Translations under genes and position numbers: made by a program
Origin: Pontiella agarivorans
Lineage (GTDB): Bacteria > Verrucomicrobiota > Kiritimatiellia > Kiritimatiellales > Pontiellaceae
Direction of reading: 5' to 3'
Assembly (NCBI RefSeq): GCF_034531395.1
Contig: NZ_JARVCO010000012.1
Span: 806,001-870,000, forward strand
DNA length: 64,000 bases
The notes under the pieces: generated by a model
What the model was told of the DNA's origin: nothing
Databases searched by the model: none
The model's input: the letters and a program-made list of their open reading frames with translations, nothing else
Part shown: positions 31,201 to 62,007 of the stretch, piece by piece
Numbering within the stretch: the first letter of the stretch is position 1
How the letters are laid out: the number at the start of each line of letters is the position of its first letter

Positions 31201-31312
31201 CATTTTCATAGGTGTTCGAAATATATTGTCCAATGTGAGCCTGGAATAGATTCCTGGCTTGCTGAAAGATGGATAGGGATGATGAAACCACATAATTGAG
31301 GAGTTGAAGACG

Positions 31313-34620: not shown

Positions 34621-34671
34621 CGGGTAAAAAATATTATCTGCATGAGGAAAGGTAGACGGAAAGAGGTATAT

Positions 34672-39084: not shown

Positions 39085-39363
39085 ATGGGAAGAAAACGAA
39101 GGACATTTACGGACAAGTTTAAGGCCAAGGTGGCGTTCGAATCCATAAAGGGCGTGAAGACACTCAACGAATTGGCCTCGGAATATCAGGTTCATCCGAA
39201 CCAGATCTCGGATCGGAAAAGGCAGCTGCTTTCGAATGCGCCGGAGCTTTTTGCTTCGGGAAAAAAGGCACAGGCCAAAACGGAAGAGGAGCTGACGGCT
39301 CCACTTTACGAGGAGATCGGGCGGCTGAAGATGGACGTGAAGTGGCTCGAAAAAAAGCTATGA
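39085..39363 (+). CDS. IS3 OrfA, helix-turn-helix transposase subunit
   Basis: A 92-residue protein from the ATG at 39085 (an ATG at 39079 is too close to the AAGGA box). It has the IS3 OrfA helix-turn-helix, RTFTDKFKAKVAFESIKGVK and LNELASEYQVHPNQI, and a C-terminal leucine-zipper-like stretch (LYEEIGRLKMDVKWLEKKL) used for dimerisation. It binds the IS ends. The ribosome can shift to -1 at the A AAA AAG heptamer at 39351-39357, just before the stop, to make the OrfAB fusion transposase. Confidence 0.95.
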   Translation: MGRKRRTFTDKFKAKVAFESIKGVKTLNELASEYQVHPNQISDRKRQLLSNAPELFASGKKAQAKTEEELTAPLYEEIGRLKMDVKWLEKKL

Positions 39364-40205
39364 GCCTGCCGCTTTCAACCCGTCGGAGCTGGGTGGAGCC
39401 CTGCCCCGATTATTCAATCCGGCGACCGTGTCGGCTGGCAGGCGTTCCCCGGTCGGGGGTCTATTATGAACCCGCCCCGGAAACGGCAGAGAATCTCCTT
39501 CTGATGCGTTTGATCGATGAGCAGTATATGAAACATCCCGAGTTCGGTTCGCCCCGTATGACGGATTGGCTGCAGGATGAGGGACATGAAGTCAACCGCA
39601 AGCGTGTCGCCCGCCTGATGCGGCGCATGGGGCTTCAGGCGATCACGCCCGGCCCGCACACGAGCAAGCCGGCGACGGGGCACAAGATATATCCGTATCT
39701 ATTGAGCAATGTGGACATTGAGCGGGTGAACCAAGTCTGGAGTACGGACATCACCTATATCCCCATGCGCAACGGATACATGTATCTGACCGCCGTGATC
39801 GATTGGTTCAGCCGGTACGTTCTGGCCTGGGAGCTCTCGAATACAATGGAGAGTCTCTTCTGCATCGATGCTCTTGAGCATGCGTTGACCCAAGGGACAC
39901 CCGGCATTTTCAATACAGATCAAGGTTCTCAGTTTACCTCCCATGCCTTTACCGATGTCCTGCTCGGCCAGAACATCACGATCAGCATGGATGGCCGGGG
40001 ACGGGCGCTTGATAACGTATTCATCGAACGGCTGTGGTGGTCGGTAAAATACGAGAAGGTCTATCCGGCCTCCTACACTGACGGGTGGGAATTGCTCCAG
40101 GGACTCGACGGTTATTTCAACTATTACAACCACGAGAGGAAACACAGCGCTCTGGACAAACGAACACCGGCTGAGGTATTCAAGGAAGGAGTAGTCAGAA
40201 CATGA
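39342..40205 (+). CDS. IS3 OrfB, DDE integrase-domain transposase
   Basis: A 287-residue frame expressed as the OrfAB fusion by -1 frameshifting. The HTH_21 region (LIDEQYMKHPEFGSPRMTDWL) is followed by the rve integrase core, with the DDE triad visible as WSTDITYIP, NTDQGSQFTS and the Glu in IERLWWSVKYE. The C-terminal NYYNHERKHSALDKRTPAEVF is typical of IS3. The reading frame is intact, so the element may still be active. Confidence 0.96.
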   Translation: MARKKAMSLPLSTRRSWVEPCPDYSIRRPCRLAGVPRSGVYYEPAPETAENLLLMRLIDEQYMKHPEFGSPRMTDWLQDEGHEVNRKRVARLMRRMGLQAITPGPHTSKPATGHKIYPYLLSNVDIERVNQVWSTDITYIPMRNGYMYLTAVIDWFSRYVLAWELSNTMESLFCIDALEHALTQGTPGIFNTDQGSQFTSHAFTDVLLGQNITISMDGRGRALDNVFIERLWWSVKYEKVYPASYTDGWELLQGLDGYFNYYNHERKHSALDKRTPAEVFKEGVVRT

Positions 40206-40387: not shown

Positions 40388-40469
40388 TTCAGCCATAGGG
40401 GGGGGCATCGTTCTTCAGTGGAATTTGTTTCTCGAAAGATCTGCAGCCCATTTGTTAAATGGAATGTTA

Positions 40470-43106
40470 ATGAAATTCATACGGCATAAATCAATCTGGT
40501 TATTCATTGCATTGTTGCTGATGGGCACTGCGAGCGATGCGCGGCTTATTGCCCACTATGACTTTTCTGATGGGGATCTGCTTGATAATGAAGTCGGCCC
40601 GGAATACCGATTGGAGCAACGCAGCAAGGCAGCGGTGCTACCGGAAGTGATGCTGAATCGTGCATATGGGACGGCTGTGTTCTCGGGAGGGCTTGATTCG
40701 GTGTCCTGGCTGGAGTGCAAAGGGCCCGGCAGACTCGACGAATTCACTTTTTCTCTCTGGTTTCGAACGGATCAGGTTGATCAGCGAATAGATTATCTAA
40801 GCGTTGTCGGTTCGGGCGGAAAAAGGATGCGCGGTAGTTGGCAGGTTCACAGTGACACGCGTAGGCAGGGGAATCTGCGCTTCCGAAGCGGTGAGTCGTT
40901 GCAGTTGTATGATCTCGGTTCTGCGATAAAAAAACCGGGGATTTGGTATCATCTCTTGGTGCGGAAGAAACGTTCCGGAGCGGTGGAGTGCTATGTAACC
41001 CCCGAGAAAGGCGAAATGAAAAAGCCGGACCTGCAGCTGAACGATGCGGATATTGCACTGGACGATATAATTCTGGGCAGCGGCGGCATTCGGGGCACAG
41101 GTTATCGAATGGAACTGGCCAATGTCCGCATCTATGATACGGCAGACATCCCGGTAGATTCGCTCTTGGATGAAGGGCCTTGTGTCTTTGTGCCGGAAAA
41201 AAAACCAGGCTGGAATGTCGGGGAAATGCTGTCCCGGTTGAAAGCCGATGAGGATAAGCTTCTCAGCATGTTGTCGGAACTCCCCCTGCTGCAGGACACG
41301 CAGCAGTTGGATGCCTATGGATGTCATAGTAGTTTTCTGCCGGAACTCGATGAAGTGCCCGAGGAGCCGCGGTGGACGGTGTTTCTGGGCATGGAAGGAT
41401 CAAGGGCAAGGGAAATATATCTGATTCCTGCTGCCGATCGCCGCGATCCAGCCATGCCCGGTTATGGATTTCCTAAACGTTTCAGAATCATGGGGACTGA
41501 TTCGAGAGGGAAATCATTTGTTCTCTCTGACTGGTACGACCGGGATTTTCCTGATCCGGGGCGTCTTCCTGTACGTTTGATTATCCCGCATGGGAGATAT
41601 GTGGGCATTCAGATTGATGTTTTCAAGGGGCATAGCGAAGCCGGCAAAGAATTTTTTGCGCTTGACGAAGTGTTTATCCGTGGAGAGTCCAACCTTCTTC
41701 CGATACATTCCGTGCGGCTTTCTTCGAGTTTCGAAGTTCCGCCTTTCTGGAGTATAGAATATCTTCAGGATGGGAAAACCGGTATGGGGCTCCCGGTGCT
41801 CCCGGAACCGGATGAATCGATTCGGGACTTTGTGGTTCATTTCCCATCCAAACCTGATAAGGCGATTTCTCTGGAGCTGGATTTGGAGGAAAACCGAAGA
41901 GTAGGCGATATTATATTTTATCCTGCTCAGCCTCCGGAGGGCGCCGTGGTGCCCGGTTATGGATTCCCCGGATCAATAAAAATTGAATATATCCGTGACC
42001 GTGGAGAGGGGGTGCCCAGAACCGTTTTACGAGAACAATGGGTTAGGGATATGAAAAATCCGGGCAATAATGTAATTCGTGTGCGGCAGATTCCAAACCA
42101 TATACGCTGGGTTCGGTTCACGCTGGATAAGCTTCCGCATTATGAGGGAGATTATGTTCTTGGGTTCGGCGAAATAGCGATTACACGCGATCGGGTATCG
42201 ATGGGTACGGGCTGTGCGGTTAAGTCCGATCTGGATCTGTCTGAAACTAATCTGCTGCGGTTGACTGATGGCTTTGCCGGAGGCCGTCGTGTGATTCCTG
42301 TATTGCAGTGGCTCGATGGACTTTCGCTCCGCAGAGATCTTAACCTTTGGCTGAAGGCTAATGTGGCATTGCAGGAAAAGTTGACTGCCCGCGGGGATCA
42401 ATTCCGTCGTTTGGCTCTCAACGGAAGTTTGGTAACACTTGTGCTTATCCTGGCGGGTATCAGTCTCACCGGTCTGCTGTTACGCCGTCGGCAGACCTTC
42501 CTGTTCCGGCAGCGTGTGACTCAGGATCTGCACGATGATATCGGCAGCAAGATCGGGGCAATCTCGCTGGTTTCCACCTACCTGAAAAAGGCAACCCCCG
42601 AACCGGTCGCACAGGAGTGCGGGAATGATATTGATGAAATCGCAGCCGACATGAAGCAGGCGTTACGCGACGTACTTTGGTTTACGAGTAACAGGACGGA
42701 CCGTCTGGGCGAACTGGTCTGCAAGTTGAAGGAAATTGCGGAAAGTACATTGCCGGCAGAAATGCTGGAACTGAAGCATTCGCCTTTGCATCAGATTCCC
42801 GACAGGCCGATTCGTATTAAGATAAAGCGCGATGTGATGATGTTCTTCAAAGAAGCATTGAATAATGCGGTGAAACATGCCGGGGCTTCGGAAATAAACA
42901 TTTCCATACTTTGGAACCGGCCTCGGTTGGTTATCCGGATCCAGGATAACGGCGGCGGGTTTGATCCTGAACATATGGATGAAGGGAAGATGCATCTGGG
43001 ACTCGAAGGCATGAAGCGGCGGGCGAAGCGGATTCATGGCGATTTGGTGATCGAATCCGCTCCGGGCACCGGTACACTGGTTGAGCTTAAAATGAAGGTG
43101 AAATAA
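40470..43106 (+). CDS. Sensor histidine kinase with extracytoplasmic LamG-type sensor
   Basis: An 878-residue membrane kinase. Signal/anchor: MKFIRHKSIWLFIALLLMGTASDA. Residues about 25-235 form a concanavalin-like LamG sensor (LIAHYDFSDGDLLDNEVG, FTFSLWFRTDQ). Two further beta-sandwich repeats follow (about 290-410 and 430-590, each with PAMPGYGFPKRFRI or GAVVPGYGFPGSIKI). The membrane helix is near 652-670. The HisKA_3 phosphoacceptor is His688 in TQDLHDDIGSKIGAIS, and the ATPase domain shows NNAVKHAG and DNGGGFDP. It probably senses polysaccharide fragments and passes the signal to the response regulator, which overlaps by one base. The IS element ends 82 bases upstream, so its original promoter may have been displaced. 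Confidence 0.9.
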   Translation: MKFIRHKSIWLFIALLLMGTASDARLIAHYDFSDGDLLDNEVGPEYRLEQRSKAAVLPEVMLNRAYGTAVFSGGLDSVSWLECKGPGRLDEFTFSLWFRTDQVDQRIDYLSVVGSGGKRMRGSWQVHSDTRRQGNLRFRSGESLQLYDLGSAIKKPGIWYHLLVRKKRSGAVECYVTPEKGEMKKPDLQLNDADIALDDIILGSGGIRGTGYRMELANVRIYDTADIPVDSLLDEGPCVFVPEKKPGWNVGEMLSRLKADEDKLLSMLSELPLLQDTQQLDAYGCHSSFLPELDEVPEEPRWTVFLGMEGSRAREIYLIPAADRRDPAMPGYGFPKRFRIMGTDSRGKSFVLSDWYDRDFPDPGRLPVRLIIPHGRYVGIQIDVFKGHSEAGKEFFALDEVFIRGESNLLPIHSVRLSSSFEVPPFWSIEYLQDGKTGMGLPVLPEPDESIRDFVVHFPSKPDKAISLELDLEENRRVGDIIFYPAQPPEGAVVPGYGFPGSIKIEYIRDRGEGVPRTVLREQWVRDMKNPGNNVIRVRQIPNHIRWVRFTLDKLPHYEGDYVLGFGEIAITRDRVSMGTGCAVKSDLDLSETNLLRLTDGFAGGRRVIPVLQWLDGLSLRRDLNLWLKANVALQEKLTARGDQFRRLALNGSLVTLVLILAGISLTGLLLRRRQTFLFRQRVTQDLHDDIGSKIGAISLVSTYLKKATPEPVAQECGNDIDEIAADMKQALRDVLWFTSNRTDRLGELVCKLKEIAESTLPAEMLELKHSPLHQIPDRPIRIKIKRDVMMFFKEALNNAVKHAGASEINISILWNRPRLVIRIQDNGGGFDPEHMDEGKMHLGLEGMKRRAKRIHGDLVIESAPGTGTLVELKMKVK

Positions 43107-43744
43107 TGGGAAAAGCGAAAAAGACGGTCTGGATCATTGAAGATGAAGCGCACTTTCGCAATCATCTGGCCCGTTTGATTAATCTGGATGATGTGATCGA
43201 GTGCACTGCAAAGTTTGAGTCCTACGAGGAAGCCCTGCCCAGTATCGAAAGTGCAGCATATCCCGACCTGCTGTTGCTAGATCTGAACCTCCCGGGCATG
43301 CACGGGCTTGAGGTCATTCGGGAACTGACCGAGAAGCATCCCGATATTCATATTCTGGTGCTGACTGTTGATGAAAACCGGAAAACCGTTTTCGACGCTA
43401 TCTGTGCAGGAGCGGCCGGCTACCTCGTGAAAAACGACCCGTTCGATGATATTCTCAAGGGAATTCATCAGGTGATGGAAGGCGGGGCACCGCTCAGCAG
43501 TTCGATTGCCTCCTATGTGTTGCAGTACTTTAAGCCGAAACAACCGTTTGAAGAGCTGAATGAGCGTGAAGTCGAAATCCTGGAAATGCTGGCCAATGGC
43601 GATACCCGAAAGGAAATCGCCGCCAAACTTCATGTGGCTCCCACCACCGTCGATTATCATCTGCGCTCCATCTACGTAAAGCTGCAGGTCAACTCCGCTG
43701 CCGGCGCAGTGGCCAAAGCCCTGCGCGACCGCCTGATTGAATGA
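43106..43744 (+). CDS. NarL/LuxR-family response regulator
   Basis: A 212-residue regulator. The receiver domain (about 7-125) has the phosphorylated Asp59 in LLLLDLNLPGMHG and the conserved ED pair (IIEDE) near residue 12. The C-terminal LuxR-type HTH is LNEREVEILEMLANGDTRKEIAAKLHVAPTTVDYHLRSIYVKL. The start overlaps the kinase stop by one base (TAATG). It is expected to regulate the nearby glycosidase and sulfatase genes. Confidence 0.95.
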   Translation: MGKAKKTVWIIEDEAHFRNHLARLINLDDVIECTAKFESYEEALPSIESAAYPDLLLLDLNLPGMHGLEVIRELTEKHPDIHILVLTVDENRKTVFDAICAGAAGYLVKNDPFDDILKGIHQVMEGGAPLSSSIASYVLQYFKPKQPFEELNEREVEILEMLANGDTRKEIAAKLHVAPTTVDYHLRSIYVKLQVNSAAGAVAKALRDRLIE

Positions 43745-44264: not shown

Positions 44265-45464
44265 ATGAAGGTGATGACAGGAGCAGCATTACTAATTACG
44301 TTTCTTTCCGTCGGGACCGGAGCTGATTCAATTCAGCATGGAGGAACGATGGTCAATATGACATTCGTAGACATCGGCCAAAGCAATGTCGGCGCAGATT
44401 CAACGGGCTATGGCACGGTGGATTACGCCTATCGCATGGGCAAGTATGAGGTGACCGCTTCGCAGTGGGCAACGGTGATCACGGCAGATCCCGATGTGGG
44501 GGATTCGGATGATGGGAGCGGTTCATTGCCCGTGCGTTCTGCGACCTGGAATGAAGCCGCCAAATTTGCAAACTGGTTGACGAGTGGTAACGCCTATGAA
44601 GGTGCCTATCAGTTTGATGGGAGCGGAGCTATGACCAATGTAAATCGCGAGGCGGCAGTTGCGGCTTACAGCAGGGTCTATGTGTTGCCGACCGAAGATG
44701 AGTGGTACAAAGCGGCCTATCTTAAGTCGGATGGAAGCGCATTCACTCTTTATCCCACCGGGGATTCGATACCGATCGAAAGGGCGGGGGGAGAAAATTA
44801 CAACAACAAAGATGGCCTATGGAATGTAGGGTCGGGGAGCGTTGAAAACAACGGTACATTCGATATGGGGGGCAACCAATGGGAATGGACGGAAAGTGCA
44901 TTTGATGGTGTGCTTGATGACATGAGTGAAAAACGGGTAATTAGAGGAGGAGAATATATTAATGATGCATACTATTTAAGTTCTGTGGCCCGCCTTGAAT
45001 ATCCTATAACAATAGGACAAGGATTTCGCATTGTGGCCATACCGATATTGACTGATTATCAGGTCTGGGCAGATTCGCAAGGCATATATATGAATGATGC
45101 GATCTGTACGAATGATTATGACGGTGATGGTTTAGACAATGTAACAGAATGGGGTTTTGGCGGAGACCCGAGGAATCCCAGTGATGCGACGGGAAGGCTG
45201 CCACGGTATATGGTTGGTGCGGATGGTAACTTTCTGATCATTCATCCCCGACCAAAGAACGGGCCGTACCCTAAATATAATATTTTTTCGGATACTGACT
45301 TGGTGAATACTCCCGGTTTCGAGCTGGAAAAACTAGGGAACTATGCAGTGACGCTTGGTGGGCAATGGGATTCGGGCAACTGGGCGAGTAACATTGAATC
45401 CGTGACCAATGTGTTTCCCTCTACCATGTCAACTAAGTTTTTCAAACTAAAGGTTAGTGAATAA
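44265..45464 (+). CDS. Secreted FGE-fold (SUMF1-like) protein with calcium-repeat tail
   Basis: A 399-residue exported protein. The signal peptide is KVMTGAALLITFLSVGTGADS. An FGE-sulfatase domain (about 25-265) follows, with MTFVDIGQSNVGADSTGYGTVDYAYRMGKYEVTASQWA, RVYVLPTEDEWYKAAY, GNQWEWTESAF and VIRGGEY ... GQGFRIVA. The cysteines that bind copper in true formylglycine-generating enzymes are absent from the RGGEYINDAYYLSSVARLEY segment, so sulfatase activation is unlikely. The last 130 residues are the shared calcium-repeat tail (NDYDGDGLDNVTEWGFGGDP ... KFFKLKVSE). It is a single-gene unit with motif copies upstream. Surface carbohydrate binding is a guess. Confidence 0.87.
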   Translation: MKVMTGAALLITFLSVGTGADSIQHGGTMVNMTFVDIGQSNVGADSTGYGTVDYAYRMGKYEVTASQWATVITADPDVGDSDDGSGSLPVRSATWNEAAKFANWLTSGNAYEGAYQFDGSGAMTNVNREAAVAAYSRVYVLPTEDEWYKAAYLKSDGSAFTLYPTGDSIPIERAGGENYNNKDGLWNVGSGSVENNGTFDMGGNQWEWTESAFDGVLDDMSEKRVIRGGEYINDAYYLSSVARLEYPITIGQGFRIVAIPILTDYQVWADSQGIYMNDAICTNDYDGDGLDNVTEWGFGGDPRNPSDATGRLPRYMVGADGNFLIIHPRPKNGPYPKYNIFSDTDLVNTPGFELEKLGNYAVTLGGQWDSGNWASNIESVTNVFPSTMSTKFFKLKVSE

Positions 45465-45675: not shown

Positions 45676-48342
45676 ATGGGTAAATGTTTGGTCAAAGCAG
45701 TGTTGTTTCTTACGGTGTCGGCCGTTGTGGTATCCGCAAAAAGTTTTGTGACCGACGGCAATGCCATCCGGAAAATGACTCCGGGGATGATCAAATCGAC
45801 GCCGGTATTCTTTTTCGGAGAACTTGACGGCAGCGTTTCCTGCTATACTACGGACGGGAAGAAACTTTGGCGGAATGAAACCAAGTCGCCTGCCGTATTG
45901 TTTGAAATTGAGGTGGCGGATGTGGATGGCGATGGGCGTGATGATCTGCTGACGGCAAGCGGTGACGGATCCATCACCTGCTGGAATGCCAATGGTTCGC
46001 TTCGCTGGAAATACAGCGGGGACCGCAAAGTCCGTTTTAATGAAGTGGCGGTGTTAAAACGCGGAAAGGATATAAAGATTTTTGCGGGTGGTAACGACAA
46101 AGTCATCTATGTGCTGGACCGCGATGGAAACCTGATCACGAAGCACGGCGTTCCCGGTGCCATCCGCAAGCTGGAAATCGGTGACTTTAAGAAAAAGGGC
46201 GAGCCGCTCCTTTTTGTGATGACCATGCGGCACGACAAGTCCGGCTGGTTGACATTCGGGTTTCTCGATCCGGATCATCTAAAGAAGGACATGGGATCTT
46301 TATCATCAAGGAACAGAACTAAACGGTTATCGGGAATCATGACCGATCTACGGGTTCAGGATCTGGATCGTGACGGTTTGGATGATCTGTTGGTTTTTCT
46401 GAATAGCGGCCCGGTGTTGTCTGCGTTAAATGGAGAGTTTGAAGAGATTGCGGGTTTTGATCTCAGCGGCTACAAAAAAGTTGAGCGCGCTTCCCGCCAG
46501 CGCTATGCGCATTCGATCGGCACTTCTCTCTATCCTGCCAGAGACGAAATCCTGATCCAGTTTGGCCGCGCGTTTTATGTGCTCGACTCCAAGGGCAAGC
46601 TGTTGGAATGGAGCGGATCTAATTCCGCCCGTTTCCCGTTTGGTGATATTTGTATGCATCCGGCAACAAGGAAATTGTTTGGAGCGGGATCGGTCGGCGG
46701 AGATAACGGGGTTTATGAGTTTGACCTGACCCAATCCGAATGGTGGATGCAGCATGACCAATGGACTGGTCGGATGAGCGATGTTAAGGCAAATCTGGAA
46801 ACATTATATGAGCAGGTACTGTCTTTTGACCCACCCGAATATCAGTCACCGGCAAAGAAACCCTGGGTGATGGGCTATGGCGGTGCAATTCAGGAAGAAG
46901 TGGCAGCGCTGGATTTCAATGAGGTGGTTATAGCCGATGAGGAGATCTGGTCGGAGGATTATGATCGGTCAGATATCATTTCTGTAGTGGGAGAACAATA
47001 TGGAAACAGACGGGACAAGCGTAAGCCCTATCGCGATTCCCGTGCAGACCTCATTCGGAAGGCGCAGGATCTTGAGGCCCAAGGCGAGGCGTTTATTATC
47101 TGGGCAGGTCATGGTAGCGATCCGTTTTATGTATCTATTGGGACACTGGAAGCCATACTGGAGGCAGCGCCGAATACGTGTTTAGGATTTACCTATGCGG
47201 AGATGTCGAATACGGAAGATCCGCGCATTCATTATTTTATTGAGCATTATATGCCGAGACTGGCGAAAGCGTGTCGAAAGCAGGGTAAAGCCAAGCTCTA
47301 TTTCCGCTACAAGCAGACGTTTTGGGCAACGACGGTTCAGGCGCACCCATGGAATGAGCTGTTTCTTTCTGGAAAATATTCCGATCTTCTGGTGCCGGGG
47401 ACGGAAGATACCAACTCTACGACTCAGGAACTGAACCTGGCCGGTCGTGTGGGTATGTTTACCGCCGGCTGTGTTGATGATTTTGCTATGCGGCTAATTG
47501 ATGACAATCCGACGGGCTGGCGCCCGGTTGCGCCCGGCCGGCAGCGATCTATCTCTCCATGGTTGCGCAGCGGTGTGATTCGCGGAGCGTATGGTGCTCG
47601 ATTCGGTTTGCTGTGGAATTTTCACAGTGTGGATGGACCGGGGCTTGAACTGCTGATTGCGATGATGGGATCCGGCGTACTTCCGCTGATTGAAGATGCG
47701 GATGATCTGGCTTCCATCGGAGCCTATCATCTGATGAAAGAAGTACCCCATGATTTTCATATGCGGGAGCATCTCGGCCACACGATCGACGCCTATCTCG
47801 AAGAGGACTATGATGCGGTTCTCTCTGTGGTGAATGTACACTGGGGCGGCGCAAGTGTGCCGGGTTATGATTTCTCGAAAGCGCTGGGAGTGGACTACCG
47901 TTGGCTAAATTTCATGCCGAAACTTCCACATGGCATGGTGCCGATTGCTCCGCTCGATTATCAGAAACAGTTGCAACAGAATAGCACGCCTTACTTTGTG
48001 AGTAATGCAAGGAATGGCCTTGTTGGGGGGAAGGAGGTGTCTGCTGATACTTTCGGAACGACAATTTCAAAAACAGTAAAAGCTGGAGCGAAAAAACTGC
48101 CATTTCTGGTGAAGGGCGCATCCTGGAGCGCAATCAAACTGGATGAAAGTCACTATCGCATTGTGCTGGTGGATCCGCACTATATCGATCCGCGTGACTG
48201 CCCGAGCGAGATAACTGTTCAAAAAACGGGTCCTAAAGGTGCGGTCGATATCCTGTCGAAGGAGCAACTGGAAATCACTGACGGGAAGGTTGAACTGATC
48301 GTTCCGGCGGGATCTATGCGGTTTGTGGATATTCAATTTTAG
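45676..48342 (+). CDS. Secreted beta-propeller enzyme resembling lambda-carrageenase (GH150)
   Basis: An 888-residue exported protein. The signal peptide is VKAVLFLTVSAVVVSA. Residues about 30-360 form a PQQ/FG-GAP-like beta-propeller (GSVSCYTTDGKKLWRNE, VADVDGDGRDDLL, GSITCWNANGSLRWKY, DLDRDGLDDLLVFL). A large alpha/beta region follows (about 390-800: VMGYGGAIQEEVAALDFNEVVIADEEIW, IIWAGHGSDPFYVSIG, ADIWAFGL-like segments absent) and a short beta end (KVELIVPAGSMRFVDI). This two-part plan, its length and its setting match GH150 lambda-carrageenase as described for Pseudoalteromonas CglA. I recognise this by architecture, not by a catalytic motif, so it is tentative. It leads an operon with two sulfatases, GH2 and GH110. 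Confidence 0.55.
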   Translation: MGKCLVKAVLFLTVSAVVVSAKSFVTDGNAIRKMTPGMIKSTPVFFFGELDGSVSCYTTDGKKLWRNETKSPAVLFEIEVADVDGDGRDDLLTASGDGSITCWNANGSLRWKYSGDRKVRFNEVAVLKRGKDIKIFAGGNDKVIYVLDRDGNLITKHGVPGAIRKLEIGDFKKKGEPLLFVMTMRHDKSGWLTFGFLDPDHLKKDMGSLSSRNRTKRLSGIMTDLRVQDLDRDGLDDLLVFLNSGPVLSALNGEFEEIAGFDLSGYKKVERASRQRYAHSIGTSLYPARDEILIQFGRAFYVLDSKGKLLEWSGSNSARFPFGDICMHPATRKLFGAGSVGGDNGVYEFDLTQSEWWMQHDQWTGRMSDVKANLETLYEQVLSFDPPEYQSPAKKPWVMGYGGAIQEEVAALDFNEVVIADEEIWSEDYDRSDIISVVGEQYGNRRDKRKPYRDSRADLIRKAQDLEAQGEAFIIWAGHGSDPFYVSIGTLEAILEAAPNTCLGFTYAEMSNTEDPRIHYFIEHYMPRLAKACRKQGKAKLYFRYKQTFWATTVQAHPWNELFLSGKYSDLLVPGTEDTNSTTQELNLAGRVGMFTAGCVDDFAMRLIDDNPTGWRPVAPGRQRSISPWLRSGVIRGAYGARFGLLWNFHSVDGPGLELLIAMMGSGVLPLIEDADDLASIGAYHLMKEVPHDFHMREHLGHTIDAYLEEDYDAVLSVVNVHWGGASVPGYDFSKALGVDYRWLNFMPKLPHGMVPIAPLDYQKQLQQNSTPYFVSNARNGLVGGKEVSADTFGTTISKTVKAGAKKLPFLVKGASWSAIKLDESHYRIVLVDPHYIDPRDCPSEITVQKTGPKGAVDILSKEQLEITDGKVELIVPAGSMRFVDIQF

Positions 48343-48360: not shown

Positions 48361-49845
48361 ATGAAAAGACGTGATTTTACGAAACTGGCAGCAACCACGA
48401 TGGTTGCAGCAACGGGGTCTACGCTCGCTGCGAAACAGACTAAGCCGAATCTGTTGATCTTTCAAACCGATGAGCACAACTTCCGCACACTGGGCTGCTA
48501 CAGGGATCTGATGTCCGAGGATCAGGCGTTTGTCTGGGGTAAGGGCGTAAAGGTGGATACGCCGCACATTGACTCGATAGCCAGAGACGGAGCGATTTGC
48601 GATCGGTATTATTCCTCATCACCGGTCTGTTCTCCGTCGCGCGCCTCTTTTGTTTCCGGTCTTTACCCGATTAATACCAACGTCTACAAAAACGGGATTC
48701 CCTTGAAGGAAGGCTTAGTGACCTTTGCTGAGGTTCTGAAGCAACAGGGCTATTCCACCTCCTACCTTGGTAAATGGCATTTGGAAGGAATCAAAGAAAA
48801 GCCTGGATTTGCACCGAAACGAAAATTCGGATTCGATGATAATCGTTATATGTGGGATGGCGGTCACTGGAAAAAAATGGGACTGAAGGAAGACGGATCG
48901 CCTTATGTGGCATCCATCGGAAGCAATGGAAAAGTGAACACGCGGGTGGACGGTGCGGATGAAAAATCGTTTACAACCGACTGGCTGGCGGATCGTACCA
49001 TGGAGATTATTGAGCGCGATCAGCACAAGCCATTCTGCATCATGTGTTCGATCCCTGATCCGCACACCCCCAATACGGTTCGTGCACCCTACGACACCAT
49101 GTTTAAAGATCTGCATTTCAAGAATCCGAAAACGATGGACTGGCCGCTGGAAAAAATGCCTAAATGGCATCGGGTCGGACAGAAAAATACCTGTCTCGAA
49201 ATCGATCAGGACAAGTTTCAGCAATATTTCGGGATGGTTAAATGCATCGACGACAATGTCGGCCGAGTTCTGGGAGACCTAAAGGCAAAGGGGCTGGATC
49301 AGAATACCATTGTAATCTTTACTTCGGATCATGGGGACATGCTTGGGGAGCATAAGCGTACGAACAAGAGTATGCCCTTCGAAGCATCCGCGCGCATTCC
49401 GTTTGTCATCCGTTATCCGAAAAAAATACGGCCGGGTAAAGTGATTCATACTGCTTATACGACGGTGGATTTTGCTCCGACGATTCTCGGCATGATGGGT
49501 ATTTCCGAAACCATTCCGAATGCTGAGGGAATCGATGGATCGTCTGCATTTTTAAGCAAGGAACTGGAGGTGAATGATGATCGCATCACGTATGTTACCA
49601 GTGCGCACCAAAATGCGGTGACGGCGGTTAACCAACGTTACAAGCTGGTGCTGACACCTATTGATGACCCCTGGCTGTTTGATCTGGAAAAGGATCCGGA
49701 TGAGCTGATCAATCAATATCCCAAGCCGGAATATAAGGAGATCGGCCAGCGGATGAAAACTGCGCTAATGAATGCAATGAAGCGCGCCAATGAACCGATG
49801 CTGGTGTCGCCGAAAAAACCTTTGATTGTTGAGACTCGCAGCTAG
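48361..49845 (+). CDS. Exported S1-family sulfatase, tandem copy 1
   Basis: A 494-residue sulfatase. The N-terminus MKRRDFTKLAATTMVAATGS is Tat-like (RRDF). The formylglycine motif is CSPSRAS with Cys90, to be converted to formylglycine. The metal-site start LLIFQTDEHNFRTLGCYR has TDEH rather than the common DD. Other motifs are TSYLGKWHLEG and FTSDHGDMLGEH. It should remove sulfate esters from oligosaccharides in the periplasm. It lies 18 bases after the propeller gene, and the next gene is its close paralogue. Confidence 0.95.
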   Translation: MKRRDFTKLAATTMVAATGSTLAAKQTKPNLLIFQTDEHNFRTLGCYRDLMSEDQAFVWGKGVKVDTPHIDSIARDGAICDRYYSSSPVCSPSRASFVSGLYPINTNVYKNGIPLKEGLVTFAEVLKQQGYSTSYLGKWHLEGIKEKPGFAPKRKFGFDDNRYMWDGGHWKKMGLKEDGSPYVASIGSNGKVNTRVDGADEKSFTTDWLADRTMEIIERDQHKPFCIMCSIPDPHTPNTVRAPYDTMFKDLHFKNPKTMDWPLEKMPKWHRVGQKNTCLEIDQDKFQQYFGMVKCIDDNVGRVLGDLKAKGLDQNTIVIFTSDHGDMLGEHKRTNKSMPFEASARIPFVIRYPKKIRPGKVIHTAYTTVDFAPTILGMMGISETIPNAEGIDGSSAFLSKELEVNDDRITYVTSAHQNAVTAVNQRYKLVLTPIDDPWLFDLEKDPDELINQYPKPEYKEIGQRMKTALMNAMKRANEPMLVSPKKPLIVETRS

Positions 49846-49854
49846 GAAAATTTC

Positions 49855-51321
49855 ATGAACAGACGTAGTTTTACAAAATGGGCTGCGGTCGGTTTAACGG
49901 CTGGAACCGGCAGTGTACTGGCGGATAAGCAGAAGCGACCGAATCTATTGGTCATTCATACCGACGAACATAACTTTCGCACACTCGGTTGCTACCGTGA
50001 GCAGTTGAGCGAAGACCAGGCTTTTGTTTGGGGCAAGGGTGTGAAGGTGGACACTCCGCATATTGACCGCATTGCGAATGAGGGCGCGATCTGCATGAAC
50101 TATTATGCAACGTCACCGGTTTGTTCTCCATCGCGCGCCTCGTTTATGTCCGGGCAGTATCCGATTAAGACAGGAACCTGGAAAAACAGCATTCCGATGA
50201 AGGATGAAGTGGTGACATTTGCAGAAGTGTTACGCCGGGAAGGATATGCCACTTCATATTTGGGCAAATGGCACTTGGATGGTAAAGGACATCCGCAGTT
50301 TGCTCCGCAGCGCAAATTTGGTTTCGAGGACAACCGCTTCATGTGGAACGGTGGCCATTGGAAAAAGATGGCGCAGAATGACGACGGTTCGCCCAGGGTC
50401 GGGGCAACAAACCACAAGGGTAAACCGACCGGCAAGTTGGACAATGCCGACGAAAAATCATTCACCACCGACTGGCTCGCTGATCGATCGCTCGAAATCC
50501 TGGAACGGGATCGTCATAAGCCATTCTGTCTGATGGTTTCGATTCCCGACCCGCATTCCCCCAATACCGTGCGAAAACCATACGATACCATGTTTGCGGA
50601 TCTCCCTTTCGAGCCGCCGCGTACCAGGAAAAGGATGCCAGCGGGCACGCTCCCGGGCTGGCGTTCATCGGAGAATAAGAATGGCGGCCAGGAGTTTGAT
50701 AAGCAAAAGATGAGCGGATACTTCGGTATGGTGAAGTGCATCGATGAGAATGTCGGGCGGCTTCTCCAGTTCCTGGACGAAAAGGGGATAGCTGACAATA
50801 CCATTGTGGTCTTTACCTCCGACCATGGTGACATGCTTTACGAGCACGACCAGGTGAACAAAGGGCAACCGTTTGATGGTTCTGCCCGCATCCCGTTCGT
50901 GATCCGCTATCCGAAAAAGATCAAGTCGGGCAAAGTCATTCACAAGGCGTATAATAATACTGATTTTGCGCCGACCATATTGGGCCTTATGGGTGCATCA
51001 TTCATTCCGAGTGCGCAGGGAGTTGATTGCTCTGAGGATTTGTTAAGCAAGGATCAAAAGATTTTCGATGACCGCATCTCCTATATGGCGGAGGCCAATG
51101 GTTTGTGGGTGGCAACGGTCAGTCGGAAACATAAGCTGATCTATTCCTCGAAAGGCGAACCCTTCCTGTTCGATCTTGAAAAGGATCCGGATGAGTTGAT
51201 TAATTTCTATGCCGATCCCGCGTATAAGACTGTTCTAAAAACTATGCACGAAGCCCTGGTGACAAGAATGACGATGGTCCAGGGGCCTGAGAGCAAAAAA
51301 ACGAAAGTTCCAGTGATTTAA
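49855..51321 (+). CDS. Exported S1-family sulfatase, tandem copy 2
   Basis: A 488-residue paralogue of the preceding sulfatase, with Cys90 again in CSPSRAS and the same GCYR, GKWHLDG and FTSDHGDMLYEH blocks. The N-terminus MNRRSFTKWAAVGLTAG is Tat-like. The two differ mainly at about 150-190 and near the C-terminus, so they may take different sulfation positions. It starts 9 bases after copy 1, so translation is probably coupled. Confidence 0.95.
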   Translation: MNRRSFTKWAAVGLTAGTGSVLADKQKRPNLLVIHTDEHNFRTLGCYREQLSEDQAFVWGKGVKVDTPHIDRIANEGAICMNYYATSPVCSPSRASFMSGQYPIKTGTWKNSIPMKDEVVTFAEVLRREGYATSYLGKWHLDGKGHPQFAPQRKFGFEDNRFMWNGGHWKKMAQNDDGSPRVGATNHKGKPTGKLDNADEKSFTTDWLADRSLEILERDRHKPFCLMVSIPDPHSPNTVRKPYDTMFADLPFEPPRTRKRMPAGTLPGWRSSENKNGGQEFDKQKMSGYFGMVKCIDENVGRLLQFLDEKGIADNTIVVFTSDHGDMLYEHDQVNKGQPFDGSARIPFVIRYPKKIKSGKVIHKAYNNTDFAPTILGLMGASFIPSAQGVDCSEDLLSKDQKIFDDRISYMAEANGLWVATVSRKHKLIYSSKGEPFLFDLEKDPDELINFYADPAYKTVLKTMHEALVTRMTMVQGPESKKTKVPVI

Positions 51322-51330
51322 GGAGATACA

Positions 51331-53910
51331 ATGAAGAAGTATTTATTTGAGGCTATCATTCTTTTAGTTACCTGTCATCAGGTGATGGCGGCGAAGCTGG
51401 GAATCAATGACGGATGGCTCTTTCAAAAGGGCGAGGTTGTCGGGGCGGAGGCCGTGGAGTTTGATTCCAGTGATTGGGAAGCGGTCGAGCTTCCGCATAC
51501 CTATAATCCATCGGGCTCGGAAGAGATCTACCGCGAGCAACAGGAAGCGGTTCAGTATGTGGGGCCTGCCTGGTATCGCAAAAACCTGTTTGTTGATCAG
51601 GCGCAGAAGGGAAAACGCCTGTTTCTCCGGTTCGATGCGGCCTATCTGCGATCCGATGTTTTCCTGAACGGTGAAAAGATCGGACGGCATGACGGTGGAT
51701 TTTCTGCATTCTGTTATGAAATCACCGGTCAGGTAAACTATGGAGCGGACAACGTCATCGCGGTTCGGGTAAATAATGAATTCAATGATGCCATTACTCC
51801 GCTGGGTGGCGGCTATCTTAAATTTGGCGGCATTACACGCCCGGTTTGGCTGATTGAAAAACCGCAGGTTTGTATTAGTCCGGTACACTATGCTTCCAGC
51901 GGTGTTTATTGCCGACAACTGGATGTCTCCCCGGAGAGAGCCGAACTCGAGATCGATACCGTGCTTAACGCTCCGGCAGGTGCAGGAGGTAAGTACAAAG
52001 TGGTTTGCACCATCAAGGATTCCTCCGGTACAGCTGTAGCAAAGGAAAGCAGGAACGTGAAGGTCAAGGCCGGCGAGCAGTGGACGGTAACTGTGCCCAT
52101 GGAGGTGATGAAGCCCAGCCTTTGGAATGGTCTTGAAAATCCGGCCCTTTATCAACTGAGCGTTGAGCTTCAGCTAAAGGGAAAAACCGTTGATCAGGTG
52201 GATGTAACGACTGGATTTAAGACGGTTGCAGTGGATCGGGATAAGGGATTTTTCCTGAATGGGAAATCCTATCCGCTGTATGGTTGTGCACAGCATCAGT
52301 ATTACCCGGGTGTCGGCTCGGCCATGCGTGCGGAACATTTTGAGCGTGATGCGGAAATCATGGAAGACCTGGGCATGAATGCGGTTCGTCTGTCTCACTA
52401 TCCGCACAGCGAATACCGGTTTGATCTTTGCGACAAAGCTGGGATTGTAGTCTTTACGGAAATGGCGCTGATCAACCTTTTCAACGGTTCTGAAGCTTAT
52501 ACGGCCAACTGTGAACAGCAGTTGAAGGAGATGATCTATCAACTCTATAATCATCCGTCTGTTGCCATTTGGGGACTGTATAACGAGTTGCGTAGTGATG
52601 AGTGGAAAGGGTTTAACGGTCTGGAATTTCTTGCGGGGCTAAACCGTACGGCCAAGGAAATCGATCCGGCTCGTTTGACCTGCGGGGTTAGCTGGAAGGC
52701 CGGGGAGCGCAACGATATTCCCGATATCAATGGATGGAACCGCTATCAGGGCTGGTATTGGAATGCGTATGAGGGGGGACCAAGCGACTTCAGCTGGATC
52801 GACACCATGCGGGATGAATTTCCGAACCGTAAACTGGGCATCACGGAATACGGTGCGGGTGCGGCCAGTAACCATTTTGATGAGCATCGACGGATTGCCC
52901 CTTACAATAAAGATCAATTTCACCCTCAGGACTTTTATAACTGGAGTCACGAGGAGCACTGGGCGGCAATGCAGCAACGTCCGTGGCTATGGGGTACCTT
53001 TATCTGGACGTTATCGGAATTTCTTGTTCCGAACTATGATCAGGGCCGTGCCACCTTCCTGCACGATAAGGGCTTGGTGGGCGAAGACCGCAAGCAGTTT
53101 AAAGACGCCTTCTTTTTCTACAAGGCCAACTGGAATCCGGAACCGATGCTTCATCTCTGCGACAAGCGATTTGATGTTCGCCTGCTGGATACCGCTGAAA
53201 TCACGGCCTATTCCAATCTGGATGAAGTAGAGCTGATCGTGAACGGAACGAGCATGGGTAAAATCACTGACGCTGAATATGGAATTCATCGCTGGAACAA
53301 GGTTCCGCTTAAGTCGGGCGAAAATAAAATCACCGTATCGTCCGGTACGTTTGCAGAAACCGCAGTCTGGCATCGGGTCACGGATATTCAAAACGATTCT
53401 GTACTCAAGGAAATTGTACCGAGCGGTTCGGAGTGGACGGTTTTCTTCAGCGACCTTATGCCGAAATATAAACGGGCCAAGGGCGTGAAAGGGATTCCCG
53501 GTGCAGACAGTGAAGTAAAGTATGCCGATCTGGATGCCATCTGGAAACAGGTGGATGAGGCCGGCACATCGCGTTTGCCGTTAATTGCGGATCAGAACTG
53601 GAAGGGCAAAGCGGCTTACCTGAAGAAAACGTTCAAGGTGGATGAGTCCGGCGTGAAAAATCCTTGTCTCTACCTGAAACAGACCGCGCGGCTTTCGCAG
53701 GCGAATCCGGGGCGGGTTGCCATCTCCATCGACGGTCGCAATGTGCTGACACTGGAGGAGGGCTGCGATGGATACCGCCTCATTCCTGTAGGTGAGCGCT
53801 GCGGGCAACTTACTCCGGGTATGCATACGATTACAGTGATTGCCGAGAAACCATTAAAGGGTGGCTTTGTGGATATTGGGCTGGTTGAGCATATCAGTCA
53901 AAAAAAGTAA
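51331..53910 (+). CDS. GH2-family glycoside hydrolase (beta-galactosidase-like)
   Basis: An 859-residue exported enzyme. The signal peptide is KKYLFEAIILLVTCHQVMA. The jelly-roll domain (about 20-185: DDW-type SSDWEAVELPHTYNP, AYLRSDVFLNGEKIGRHDGGFSAF) is followed by an Ig-like domain (about 190-290) and the TIM barrel (about 295-600), with the acid/base Glu in WGLYNELRSD and the nucleophile in GITEYGAG. C-terminal beta domains follow. Retaining beta-galactosidase activity on desulfated galactan is the likely role from context; beta-glucuronidase or mannosidase cannot be excluded. AAGGAG precedes the ATG at ideal spacing. Confidence 0.92.
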   Translation: MKKYLFEAIILLVTCHQVMAAKLGINDGWLFQKGEVVGAEAVEFDSSDWEAVELPHTYNPSGSEEIYREQQEAVQYVGPAWYRKNLFVDQAQKGKRLFLRFDAAYLRSDVFLNGEKIGRHDGGFSAFCYEITGQVNYGADNVIAVRVNNEFNDAITPLGGGYLKFGGITRPVWLIEKPQVCISPVHYASSGVYCRQLDVSPERAELEIDTVLNAPAGAGGKYKVVCTIKDSSGTAVAKESRNVKVKAGEQWTVTVPMEVMKPSLWNGLENPALYQLSVELQLKGKTVDQVDVTTGFKTVAVDRDKGFFLNGKSYPLYGCAQHQYYPGVGSAMRAEHFERDAEIMEDLGMNAVRLSHYPHSEYRFDLCDKAGIVVFTEMALINLFNGSEAYTANCEQQLKEMIYQLYNHPSVAIWGLYNELRSDEWKGFNGLEFLAGLNRTAKEIDPARLTCGVSWKAGERNDIPDINGWNRYQGWYWNAYEGGPSDFSWIDTMRDEFPNRKLGITEYGAGAASNHFDEHRRIAPYNKDQFHPQDFYNWSHEEHWAAMQQRPWLWGTFIWTLSEFLVPNYDQGRATFLHDKGLVGEDRKQFKDAFFFYKANWNPEPMLHLCDKRFDVRLLDTAEITAYSNLDEVELIVNGTSMGKITDAEYGIHRWNKVPLKSGENKITVSSGTFAETAVWHRVTDIQNDSVLKEIVPSGSEWTVFFSDLMPKYKRAKGVKGIPGADSEVKYADLDAIWKQVDEAGTSRLPLIADQNWKGKAAYLKKTFKVDESGVKNPCLYLKQTARLSQANPGRVAISIDGRNVLTLEEGCDGYRLIPVGERCGQLTPGMHTITVIAEKPLKGGFVDIGLVEHISQKK

Positions 53911-53923
53911 GAGGAAAAACGAG

Positions 53924-55744
53924 ATGAGAACTTTTTTCGGAGTCGGTTGTCTTCTGGTGATTTGCGCCGGAAGTGTATTGGCACGAACCGTTAATGTGGA
54001 AGATCACGGGATTGTACCAGGGCAGGATGTAACGTTTAAAGTGAATCAGCTTCTGGAAGAACTTCAGGGAGAAAAAGGGGTGACCCTTTATTTTCCTAAA
54101 GGGCGTTATGAGTTTAAACCGGAAAATGCAATCGAGAAATATAGAGCCGTGACCAACCACGACAACAGCCTGAAACGAATTGCTTTTCCATTGTATGGGT
54201 TTGAAGACTTTACCCTTGATGGCGGGGAATCCACGTTCCTGTTTTATGGACGTATCTGTCCGGTGATCGTCGAGAATTCAAAAAATATCATGCTGAAAAA
54301 TTTCAGTATTGACTGGGATACACCGTTTCATCACGAGCTGACCGTTGTTGAACGTGATGAAAAGAACAATACCTTCGTGGCAGAAGTCAGCCCGATGAAG
54401 CACGGCTTCAAAGTACAGGGCGGTAAACTGCTGCTGGGGCACTATGGTTGGGAAGATGAGCTGGGGCAGAATATTCCGTACGACCCGAAGACAGGTGCGC
54501 CTTATTGGGATACACGCAGGTATGGCCTGAAATACAGAGGGGCGAAGGCCGCCAACGTTGGAGAAAACAGAGTGCGGCTTCAGGACGCCACACGCCTTGC
54601 TCCTCCGCTGGGTGCCGTATTATGCGCTTGGGGGAACTCTCCGAACCGGTTGGCGCAGTCTATTCATCTGGGCAATTCTCTGAATACAACGATTGAGAAT
54701 GTAACGGTCTATGCCGGCGGTGGTATGGGACTGATTGCGGAACGATGCGAAAATATTCATCTCAATAAATTTGTTGTAACTTCAGCGGAAGGCCGAACAC
54801 TTTCTGCACGTGCGGATGCAACTCATTTTCTCGGCTGTAAGGGGCTCATTCATGTGGAAAACTGTCTGCTGGAGCATATGGGAGATGATGGAATCAATGT
54901 GCATGGTGCTTATGTGAAGGTCGTTGAGTACATGGGTGATAACACATTTCTCTGTGAAATCAGTCATCGACAACAGAAAGGGCTGATCTTCTGTGAACCG
55001 GGCGACAAGGTGATGCTTACGTCACGTAAAAATGTTCAGCCTCTTTATGAGTCGACCGTTACCGCTACTCGAATTCTGAATGAATCCCGCTTTTTGATGA
55101 CGGTGGATATGATGCCGGAAACGTATCCGGAAGGTCCGTTATCGTTTGAAAACCTGACCTGGTATCCGGACGTCATCATGAAAAAATGTATTGTGCGGGA
55201 AAACCGTGCCCGCAGTGTTCTGATTTCGACGAAAGGTAAAGTCCTGCTCGAAGATAACTGGTTTTCTTCTCAGATGCACGGAGTGCTGATCGAGGGAGAT
55301 AACAAGTCCTGGTATGAATCCGGCGGAGTTCGGGATGTGACGATCAATAACAATACATTTGTGAATCACGGGTATGGAAATGGGCAGGGTTACCCTCTCT
55401 ACGCCGCACCCATGCTGCTGCCGGAGCAGACGCTGGGCGACGACCAATATCACTGGAATATCCGGTTCACGAATAACAGGATCAAAAATTTTAACGGCCA
55501 TCTGGTACATGCGAAATCTGTTAAGAACCTGATCGTTGAAGAGAACACGGTAGAAGTCGATAATACGTATCCGAGCAGTTCCGGGCTGCCGGCAGTCGCT
55601 TTGGATTTCTGCAAAGATGTACGAGTGAAAAACAACAGTTTTGCCGGATTCGAATTCCCCATCCGAATAGAGAGCAAAGGCGGAACCACTGGATTGAAAG
55701 TTGAACATAATACCGGTCTCGATTCTGGTACGCTGAATAAATAA
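53924..55744 (+). CDS. GH110-family alpha-galactosidase-like exo-enzyme
   Basis: A 606-residue exported right-handed beta-helix protein. Its signal peptide is RTFFGVGCLLVICAGSVLA. The stretch SARADATHFLGCKGLIHVEN and CLLEHMGDDGINVHGAYVKV is characteristic of GH110, the inverting alpha-1,3-galactosidases, and DWDTPFHHELTV fits the family. Members act on alpha-1,3-linked galactose, including units from lambda-carrageenan. It is the last intact gene of the operon. The start at 53924 follows GAGGA and the signal peptide; the upstream frame from 53861 overlaps the GH2 gene. Confidence 0.87.
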   Translation: MRTFFGVGCLLVICAGSVLARTVNVEDHGIVPGQDVTFKVNQLLEELQGEKGVTLYFPKGRYEFKPENAIEKYRAVTNHDNSLKRIAFPLYGFEDFTLDGGESTFLFYGRICPVIVENSKNIMLKNFSIDWDTPFHHELTVVERDEKNNTFVAEVSPMKHGFKVQGGKLLLGHYGWEDELGQNIPYDPKTGAPYWDTRRYGLKYRGAKAANVGENRVRLQDATRLAPPLGAVLCAWGNSPNRLAQSIHLGNSLNTTIENVTVYAGGGMGLIAERCENIHLNKFVVTSAEGRTLSARADATHFLGCKGLIHVENCLLEHMGDDGINVHGAYVKVVEYMGDNTFLCEISHRQQKGLIFCEPGDKVMLTSRKNVQPLYESTVTATRILNESRFLMTVDMMPETYPEGPLSFENLTWYPDVIMKKCIVRENRARSVLISTKGKVLLEDNWFSSQMHGVLIEGDNKSWYESGGVRDVTINNNTFVNHGYGNGQGYPLYAAPMLLPEQTLGDDQYHWNIRFTNNRIKNFNGHLVHAKSVKNLIVEENTVEVDNTYPSSSGLPAVALDFCKDVRVKNNSFAGFEFPIRIESKGGTTGLKVEHNTGLDSGTLNK

Positions 55745-60591: not shown

Positions 60592-62007
60592 ATGAAAAAT
60601 AATAGTGTCGAAGTAGTCATGTTGTGTATGGCTTTATGCTGGAGCGTTAGTTCTGCGGAAAGCCGAAGTGAAGTTAAGGATGCTAAAGCGCCCCCCAACG
60701 TACTCTTTATCGCCGTGGATGACCTAAATGATTATCCAACCTATGCGGAGCGTTACCCGGATGCGATTACGCCCAATCTGGATCGGTTGGCGAAACAGGG
60801 GGTGGTTTTTGAAAAGGCGTATTGTCAGTGGCCCACCTGCGGCCCGTCGCGCAACAGCGTTATGTCCGGATTGCTGCCGACCACTGTGGCTGGGAAGGAA
60901 AAATGGGTGGATGAAGATCTGCAGAAGCGCACCCGGGAATTGGGGACCAAACTGGTGCATGAATATTTTTCCGAGCATGGTTATACAACGCTGGCCGTTG
61001 GGAAGCTGTGTCATGATCATGTCCCGGAAGGAAGCGTGGATGAAAGTGGCGGGCGTGGGTCTTTTACTGCGGGATTGGGTCGCATGTGTAAGAATTATGG
61101 CCCTGCGGGTACCAGCACCGATTGGTTTGCCGTCGATAAACCGGATGAAGAATTCCCTGACTACGAAGCAGCGAGCTGGGCGATTAATCAGCTTCAGAAA
61201 GAGCAAAAAAATCCATTTATGCTGATGGTCGGATTTATTCGTCCGCACGTTCCCTGGTATGTAAATAAGAAGTGGTTCGATCTCTATGATCCGGCTGAAC
61301 TTACCCTGCCTCCCTACAAGGCGGACGATTTAGATGATGTTCCGCCGGCTTCAGTAGCTGTAAATATTCACAAAAATATGCCGCGAACCCAGTGGGCGAT
61401 TGAGAACAACCAGTGGCGGAATATTCTGCATGCCTATCTGGCGTCGGTTAGTTTTATGGACCACCAGCTGGGCCGTATTCTGGATGCGCTGGAGGCGAGC
61501 CCGTACAAGGATAACACCGTTATTGTTCTATGGTCGGACCATGGCTATCACATGGGCGAAAAAAACAGTTTTCAGAAGCACTCCTTGTGGGATCGCGCCG
61601 GGCATGTTCCACTGTTGTTTGCCGGTACAGGCATTGAGAAAGAAAAAAGATGCGGCCGAGTGGTCAGCCTGCTGGATATCTACCCCACGCTGCTGGAGTT
61701 GTGCGGACTTCCGGAAAACCCGAAAAACGAAGGCCGAAGTTTGGTGCCGTTGCTGAATGATCCGAAAAGAGAATGGCCGTACCCGGCGCTGACAGCTTGG
61801 CGGGAAAACTGCTTTGCCCTTCAGGCAGAACGTTACCGCTACATGCGGTATAAAGATGGTTCTGAAGAGCTGTATGACCATCAGAATGATCCGAACGAAT
61901 GGACCAACCTTGCTGAAAATCCGGAATTTACCACCGTTAAGGTGGAGCTGCAGGCACAGCTGGATGCCCTTGAGATTAAGGGCGAAGTAACGAGGTGGGG
62001 AAAATAA
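60592..62007 (+). CDS. Exported S1-family sulfatase, iduronate-2-sulfatase-like
   Basis: A 471-residue sulfatase with a Sec-type signal peptide (VEVVMLCMALCWSVSSA). The formylglycine motif is CGPSRNS with Cys83, and the metal site is LFIAVDDLNDYP. GFIRPHVPWYVNKKWFDLYDP and LWSDHGYHMGEKNSFQKHSLWDRAGHVPLL are typical of the iduronate-2-sulfatase-like subgroup, which is broad and acts on many sulfated sugars. It leads an operon with a PhoD-like protein and another sulfatase (gaps of 15 and 12 bases). Confidence 0.95.
   Translation: MKNNSVEVVMLCMALCWSVSSAESRSEVKDAKAPPNVLFIAVDDLNDYPTYAERYPDAITPNLDRLAKQGVVFEKAYCQWPTCGPSRNSVMSGLLPTTVAGKEKWVDEDLQKRTRELGTKLVHEYFSEHGYTTLAVGKLCHDHVPEGSVDESGGRGSFTAGLGRMCKNYGPAGTSTDWFAVDKPDEEFPDYEAASWAINQLQKEQKNPFMLMVGFIRPHVPWYVNKKWFDLYDPAELTLPPYKADDLDDVPPASVAVNIHKNMPRTQWAIENNQWRNILHAYLASVSFMDHQLGRILDALEASPYKDNTVIVLWSDHGYHMGEKNSFQKHSLWDRAGHVPLLFAGTGIEKEKRCGRVVSLLDIYPTLLELCGLPENPKNEGRSLVPLLNDPKREWPYPALTAWRENCFALQAERYRYMRYKDGSEELYDHQNDPNEWTNLAENPEFTTVKVELQAQLDALEIKGEVTRWGK

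Follow-up and report, generated by a model that had tools for sequence, protein, structure and literature searches.

Does the long open reading frame at positions 45676-48342 (forward strand) of the 64,000-nucleotide stretch of Pontiella agarivorans DNA studied here (the window) encode a lambda-carrageenase, and if so, which galactan would it cut and with which partners? The first-pass annotation had raised the possibility of a distant member of family GH150. The frame is intact, starting with ATG and running for 888 aa with no internal stops, and its product begins with a hydrophobic leader in which residues 1 to about 21 look, by eye, like a signal peptide. In Pfam, the protein has the three domains of CglA, the founding lambda-carrageenase (GH150A) of P. 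carrageenovora, in the CglA order and all above their curated cut-offs. The N-terminal propeller, previously described as PQQ/FG-GAP-like, is recognized as such (Beta-prop_CGLA, PF25292, E=2.7e-22; FG-GAP_3, 1.1e-6), and is followed by the middle domain CGLA_M (PF25290, residues 429-765, 9.6e-55, 187 bits against a cut-off of 27) and the C-terminal domain CGLA_C (PF25291, residues 816-887, 7.8e-13). The profile comparison that had been proposed for the C-terminal region thus finds GH150 at the sequence level, and a region once said to have no familiar fold is covered by two curated domains. The CGLA_M model had no match in 14 control genomes, so that its match to the window protein lies far above chance. 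Because the three profiles occur in order and the protein aligns from end to end, at 44% identity, with the second GH150 protein of P. carrageenovora, sequence comparison supports the suspected membership in GH150.

The family has subtypes, and the position of the window protein among them bears on its likely activity. A P. carrageenovora plasmid carries two GH150 genes, with products of 942 aa and 899 aa; we take the former to be CglA, while the latter adjoins two GH110s, a GH2, and sulfatases, and PUL 8 of this species is reported to contain the second GH150 (PMC6262041). In P. distincta, GH150A and GH150B are 99% and 26% identical to CglA, respectively, and GH150B adjoins GH110B by locus tag; both enzymes act on lambda-carrageenan and on neither the kappa nor the iota form, and the products that GH150B releases are incompletely sulfated (PMC12549532). 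From gene order and the matching identity to CglA, we infer that P. distincta U2A GH150B corresponds to the 899-aa protein. In a tree of 45 GH150-like proteins, the window protein falls in the GH150B clade (n=9, support 1.0; members from Verrucomicrobiota, Flavobacteriaceae, and Gammaproteobacteria), apart from the CglA type (n=25, support 0.89), a third group (group III; n=5, 0.99), and a distant group (n=6, 1.0; about 19 to 25% identical to the window protein). The word "distant" in the original proposal is therefore apt with respect to CglA (25% identity) but not with respect to the GH150B type.

Profile searches found GH150 in 11 of 388 genomes sampled across the phylum, in 14 of 397 from the family to which Polaribacter belongs, and in 1 of 395 from the Psychrosphaera order. 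P. agarivorans itself has eight GH150 genes, two of the GH150B type (the window gene and a 65% identical paralogue on contig C2) and six of the CglA type, and two other genomes of the genus gave 8 and 11 CGLA_M matches, part of which fall on distant-group proteins or on fragments. A contig scan with a three-sequence alignment had returned only two relatives and undercounts the family; whole-genome HMM searches returned many more. A member from the PVC lineage had been expected to be notable. Since the GH150 and GH110 of Rhodopirellula sp. SWK7 have been known since 2018 (PMC6262041) and the 11 genomes of the phylum have matches, GH150 in this lineage is nothing new in itself, and in this genus it is multi-copy. 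The window protein is an addition to an already known enzyme family, in a somewhat variant operon.

Directly upstream of the 65% paralogue stands a tandem GH150B copy (C2:74779-75342; L050:8779-9342) that has lost its interior in frame; in its 188 codons the leader and first part of the propeller are fused to the C-terminal domain, about 700 residues being gone. Two CglA-type paralogues (L006 and L008) have N-terminal extensions and reach 1223 and 1279 aa; a 127-aa stretch of the 1257-aa, CBM96-containing protein at window positions 34642-38415 is 42% identical to the one in L006. The distant group includes four Pontiella proteins of 1281 to 1523 aa, about 20% identical to the window protein (L051:6478-10365, L052:8494-12423, L053:7814-11659, and L054:14046-18617), and its other two members, in L023 and L043, are about 910 to 925 aa long and 23 to 25% identical to it. 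These six keep K546, E577, D610, R616, and R631, D482 is mostly absent from them, and they are possibly a separate, uncharacterized family.

Residues conserved across the family include candidates for a role in catalysis. W65, Y277, W356, K546, E577, D610, R616, R631, and D833 are identical in 45 of 45 GH150-like proteins; GH150B, CglA, and group III share E509, E577, D610, and D732 without exception, and D482 is identical in the first two and present in three of five members of the third. The window protein retains every residue that does not vary between the CglA and GH150B groups, while others consistently distinguish the subtypes (for example, GH150B versus CglA: D578 versus E, S627-P628 versus N-H, H702 versus K). 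GH150 enzymes use an inverting mechanism. The GH150 literature that we found names no proven catalytic residues, one study describing only a deep cleft in GH150 models that contains a conserved patch (PMC12549532); removal of the propeller-like domain has been shown to lower activity and to lengthen the products (PMC11202985). AlphaFold models, run with three input sequences, reached a pLDDT of 49 for the full-length protein and 39 for the middle domain, which is too poor to place the active site. In the low-confidence full-length model, H479, E509, and E577 each lie at the end of a predicted strand or close to it, the strands following one another in a region of alternating strands and helices, an arrangement that might conceivably suit a barrel-type active site.

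The gene had been described as the head of an operon with sulfatases and a GH110, and this description holds, with the addition of a GH2 that had gone unmentioned. The order is GH150, S1a, S1b, GH2, and GH110, with gaps of 18, 9, 9, and 13 bp, and the 211 bp upstream of GH150 mark it as the leading gene. S1a (48361..49845, forward strand, 494 aa; PF00884, 1.6e-53) and S1b (49855..51321, forward strand, 488 aa) are 61% identical, and both have a twin-arginine-like leader and keep the CxPxR formylglycine motif as CSPSR at C90. For both, the best PDB match is 9ihk, "Sulfatase_S1_30A" (2e-142 and 1e-136, respectively), and we call them S1_30-like by this match rather than by SulfAtlas; a literature search on entry 9IHK found no paper. 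The one S1_30 sulfatase with a described context in the literature found belongs to a Zobellia PUL that carrageenan induces, although this PUL is believed to target a different sulfated galactan (PMC5698469). The third partner (51331..53910, forward strand, 859 aa) resembles beta-galactosidases, with Pfam GH2 domains and PDB matches to 5z1a/3cmg (3e-142). The last gene (53924..55744, forward strand) encodes a GH110 alpha-1,3-galactosidase whose best PDB match is P. distincta GH110A (9beh, 6e-86) and which likely starts at 53924 (MRTFFGVGC...) rather than at the GTG at 53861. Its triad is intact, D319, D342, and D343 (numbered from the 53861 frame) aligning with D321, D344, and D345 of PdGH110B (PMC7939477), and it is a clear orthologue of neither P. 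carrageenovora GH110. Operon structure, GH110 triad, and sulfatase motifs are thus read directly from the window, as are family and subtype membership. The operon genes have a GC content of 0.48 to 0.51, near the window mean of 0.51, and promoter and terminator scans gave no more signals than shuffled sequence. Elsewhere in the genome, a GH110 68.5% identical to that of the window adjoins a GH2 (C2:146001-166000, L072); a homologue (39%) of the histidine kinase described below lies nearby, GH150 is absent from these 20 kb, and this is likely a sister cluster of the window operon.

Other genes near the operon include possible regulators and a further sulfatase. A histidine kinase (LamG and HATPase domains) and a LuxR-type response regulator, identified by Pfam at 40425..43744 (forward strand), are possible regulators of the operon, and the kinase and the operon are closely preceded by an insertion-sequence transposase with an rve integrase core (39342-40205). 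The protein at 44265..45464 (forward strand, 399 aa) has a SUMF1/FGE-like domain (PF03781, 3.4e-19) and was considered as the maturase of the sulfatases; because it is missing the cysteine pair of true FGE, its sequence argues that it is probably not the maturase. It also resembles (47%) a 139-residue stretch of the 1080-aa protein at 31304-34546. Outside the tight operon, Pfam identifies a further sulfatase, S1c (60592..62007, forward strand, 471 aa), and homologues up to 65% identical to it occur near GH150B-type genes elsewhere. Between the operon and S1c, a 765-aa protein (57000-59297) had no Pfam or NCBIfam match; it has a TTG start, and a later start is probable.

Our results lead us to propose, with a probability of roughly 85%, that the window protein is a secreted GH150B endo-hydrolase of lambda-class carrageenan that leads a cycle of sulfatase, GH110, and GH2 action. 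By analogy with characterized relatives and from general knowledge of the families, which are our guide to the activity, the bond cut, inversion, the sulfate positions, and the order of the cycle, the enzyme would cut beta-1,4 linkages and release even-numbered neo-oligosaccharides. The propeller lobe at the N terminus and the middle domain would form between them the cleft that holds the substrate, and invariant acids of the middle domain would act by inversion, with E509, E577, and D610 as the leading candidates for the roles of general acid and base. The co-transcribed S1a and S1b would then strip sulfate from non-reducing-end sugars, GH110 would remove alpha-1,3-galactose, and GH2 would remove beta-1,4-galactose, in a repeating cycle. 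The GH2 and GH110 are only 26% and 33% identical to the lambda-PUL GH2 and GH110A of P. carrageenovora, and S1_30-like sulfatases take the place of S1_8 and S1_15, so that the true substrate may not be exactly the same.

The partner genes of the two subtypes speak to this last point. Clustered ORFs were compared within about 10 kb of 18 GH150B-type and 16 CglA-type genes; the Fisher p values are raw, with about 20 families tested and shared ancestry ignored. S1_30-like sulfatases occur at 9/18 GH150B versus 1/16 CglA loci (raw p=0.008), the former count including one fragment of 226 aa (L083) that lies where its stretch ends, and becoming 8/18 when counted more strictly. S1c-like sulfatases, including that of the window, occur at 9/18 versus 0/16 (raw p=0.001), and GH110A-like enzymes at 3/18 versus 9/16 (raw p=0.03). 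Within the Flavobacteriaceae, the corresponding numbers are 8/10 versus 1/10, 7/10 versus 0/10, and 0/10 versus 8/10. Each subtype tends to operate with its own set of genes, and the window operon is mixed, as its S1_30-like sulfatases stand together with a GH110. Given these different partners, the simplest reading is that the subtypes may handle differently sulfated lambda-class galactans. We consider it possible, though less likely than not, that the natural substrate of the window enzyme is a lambda-class galactan with another sulfate pattern (for example, without the 6-sulfate, or a hybrid region), to which S1a and S1b would be dedicated, while the six CglA-type enzymes would handle classical lambda-carrageenan. 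The incompletely sulfated products of P. distincta GH150B and the consistent residue differences between the subtypes agree with the locus counts in favoring this view. However, P. distincta GH150B does cut lambda-carrageenan, in P. carrageenovora and Psychrosphaera the GH150B gene has two GH110 neighbors while a close S1_30 homologue is absent, and the counts carry the limits given above. This view refines our explanation of the window protein as a lambda-class GH150B hydrolase and does not exclude it. The broader idea that GH150B together with S1_30-like and S1c-like sulfatases forms a second lambda-class route for another sulfation pattern, apart from the route of CglA, GH110A, and S1_8, is speculative and less likely than not.

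It is improbable that the activity was lost or changed after duplication, for example toward binding or toward a non-carrageenan galactan. A genome with eight paralogues leaves room for divergence, and the C2 copy next to the 65% paralogue has collapsed to a remnant; the window frame is nonetheless full length, keeps all the residues invariant between CglA and GH150B, and heads a coherent catabolic operon. We give practically no weight to the notion of a generic PQQ/FG-GAP propeller protein that resembles GH150 through its propeller only. While a PDB sequence search with the window protein matched propeller proteins only, at any strength, the search found no GH150 chain there to match; the strongest Pfam match lies outside the propeller, in the middle domain, the 44% identity spans the full length, and the Pfam result rules this notion out.

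If the window protein is a lambda-class GH150B hydrolase, a cultured anaerobic Kiritimatiellota strain is predicted to be able to ferment lambda-carrageenan, a substrate absent from the main text of the strain paper. According to that text, strain NLcol2 grows on agar and on a carrageenan, which we read as iota from the homologues named, and turns both into fermentation products; the text contains no test of lambda-carrageenan and no mention of GH150 or GH110, and its supplementary CAZyme table may list GH150 (PMC10880615). With a clean operon and eight GH150 paralogues, this single genome offers material for studying the specificity and catalytic residues of the family, and S1_30-like sulfatases gain a likely substrate class. 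The subtype-specific partner genes are the part most worth following; if the second route were real, two related sulfatases, a GH110, and a GH2 would suffice for a galactan with one sulfate per sugar, e.g., of the xi type.

Among known systems, the window operon can be compared with the characterized lambda-carrageenan cascade of P. distincta U2A, which comprises GH150, GH110, GH2, and S1_8/S1_15 sulfatases (PMC12549532). The GH150, GH110, GH2, and S1 sulfatase classes are all present in the window operon, but S1_8 and S1_15 are absent from it and S1_30-like enzymes are found instead, so that the operon is a variant of the published cascade. With P. distincta U2A GH150B and PUL 8 of P. carrageenovora, it shares the three-domain architecture, the clade, and GH110, GH2, and S1 neighbors, while PUL 8 differs in having two GH110s rather than one, a GH2 of low identity, and S1_8 rather than S1_30-like sulfatases. 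CglA has the same three Pfam domains and the same invariant acids and arginines but belongs to a different clade, and CglA-type loci have different partner genes. PULs combining GH150 with GH110 were also described in Rhodopirellula sp. SWK7 and Flavobacteriaceae bacterium S85, the latter with a GH2 as well (PMC6262041); the likeness is one of gene content, and their hosts are planctomycete or flavobacterial, SWK7 sharing the PVC lineage with Pontiella.
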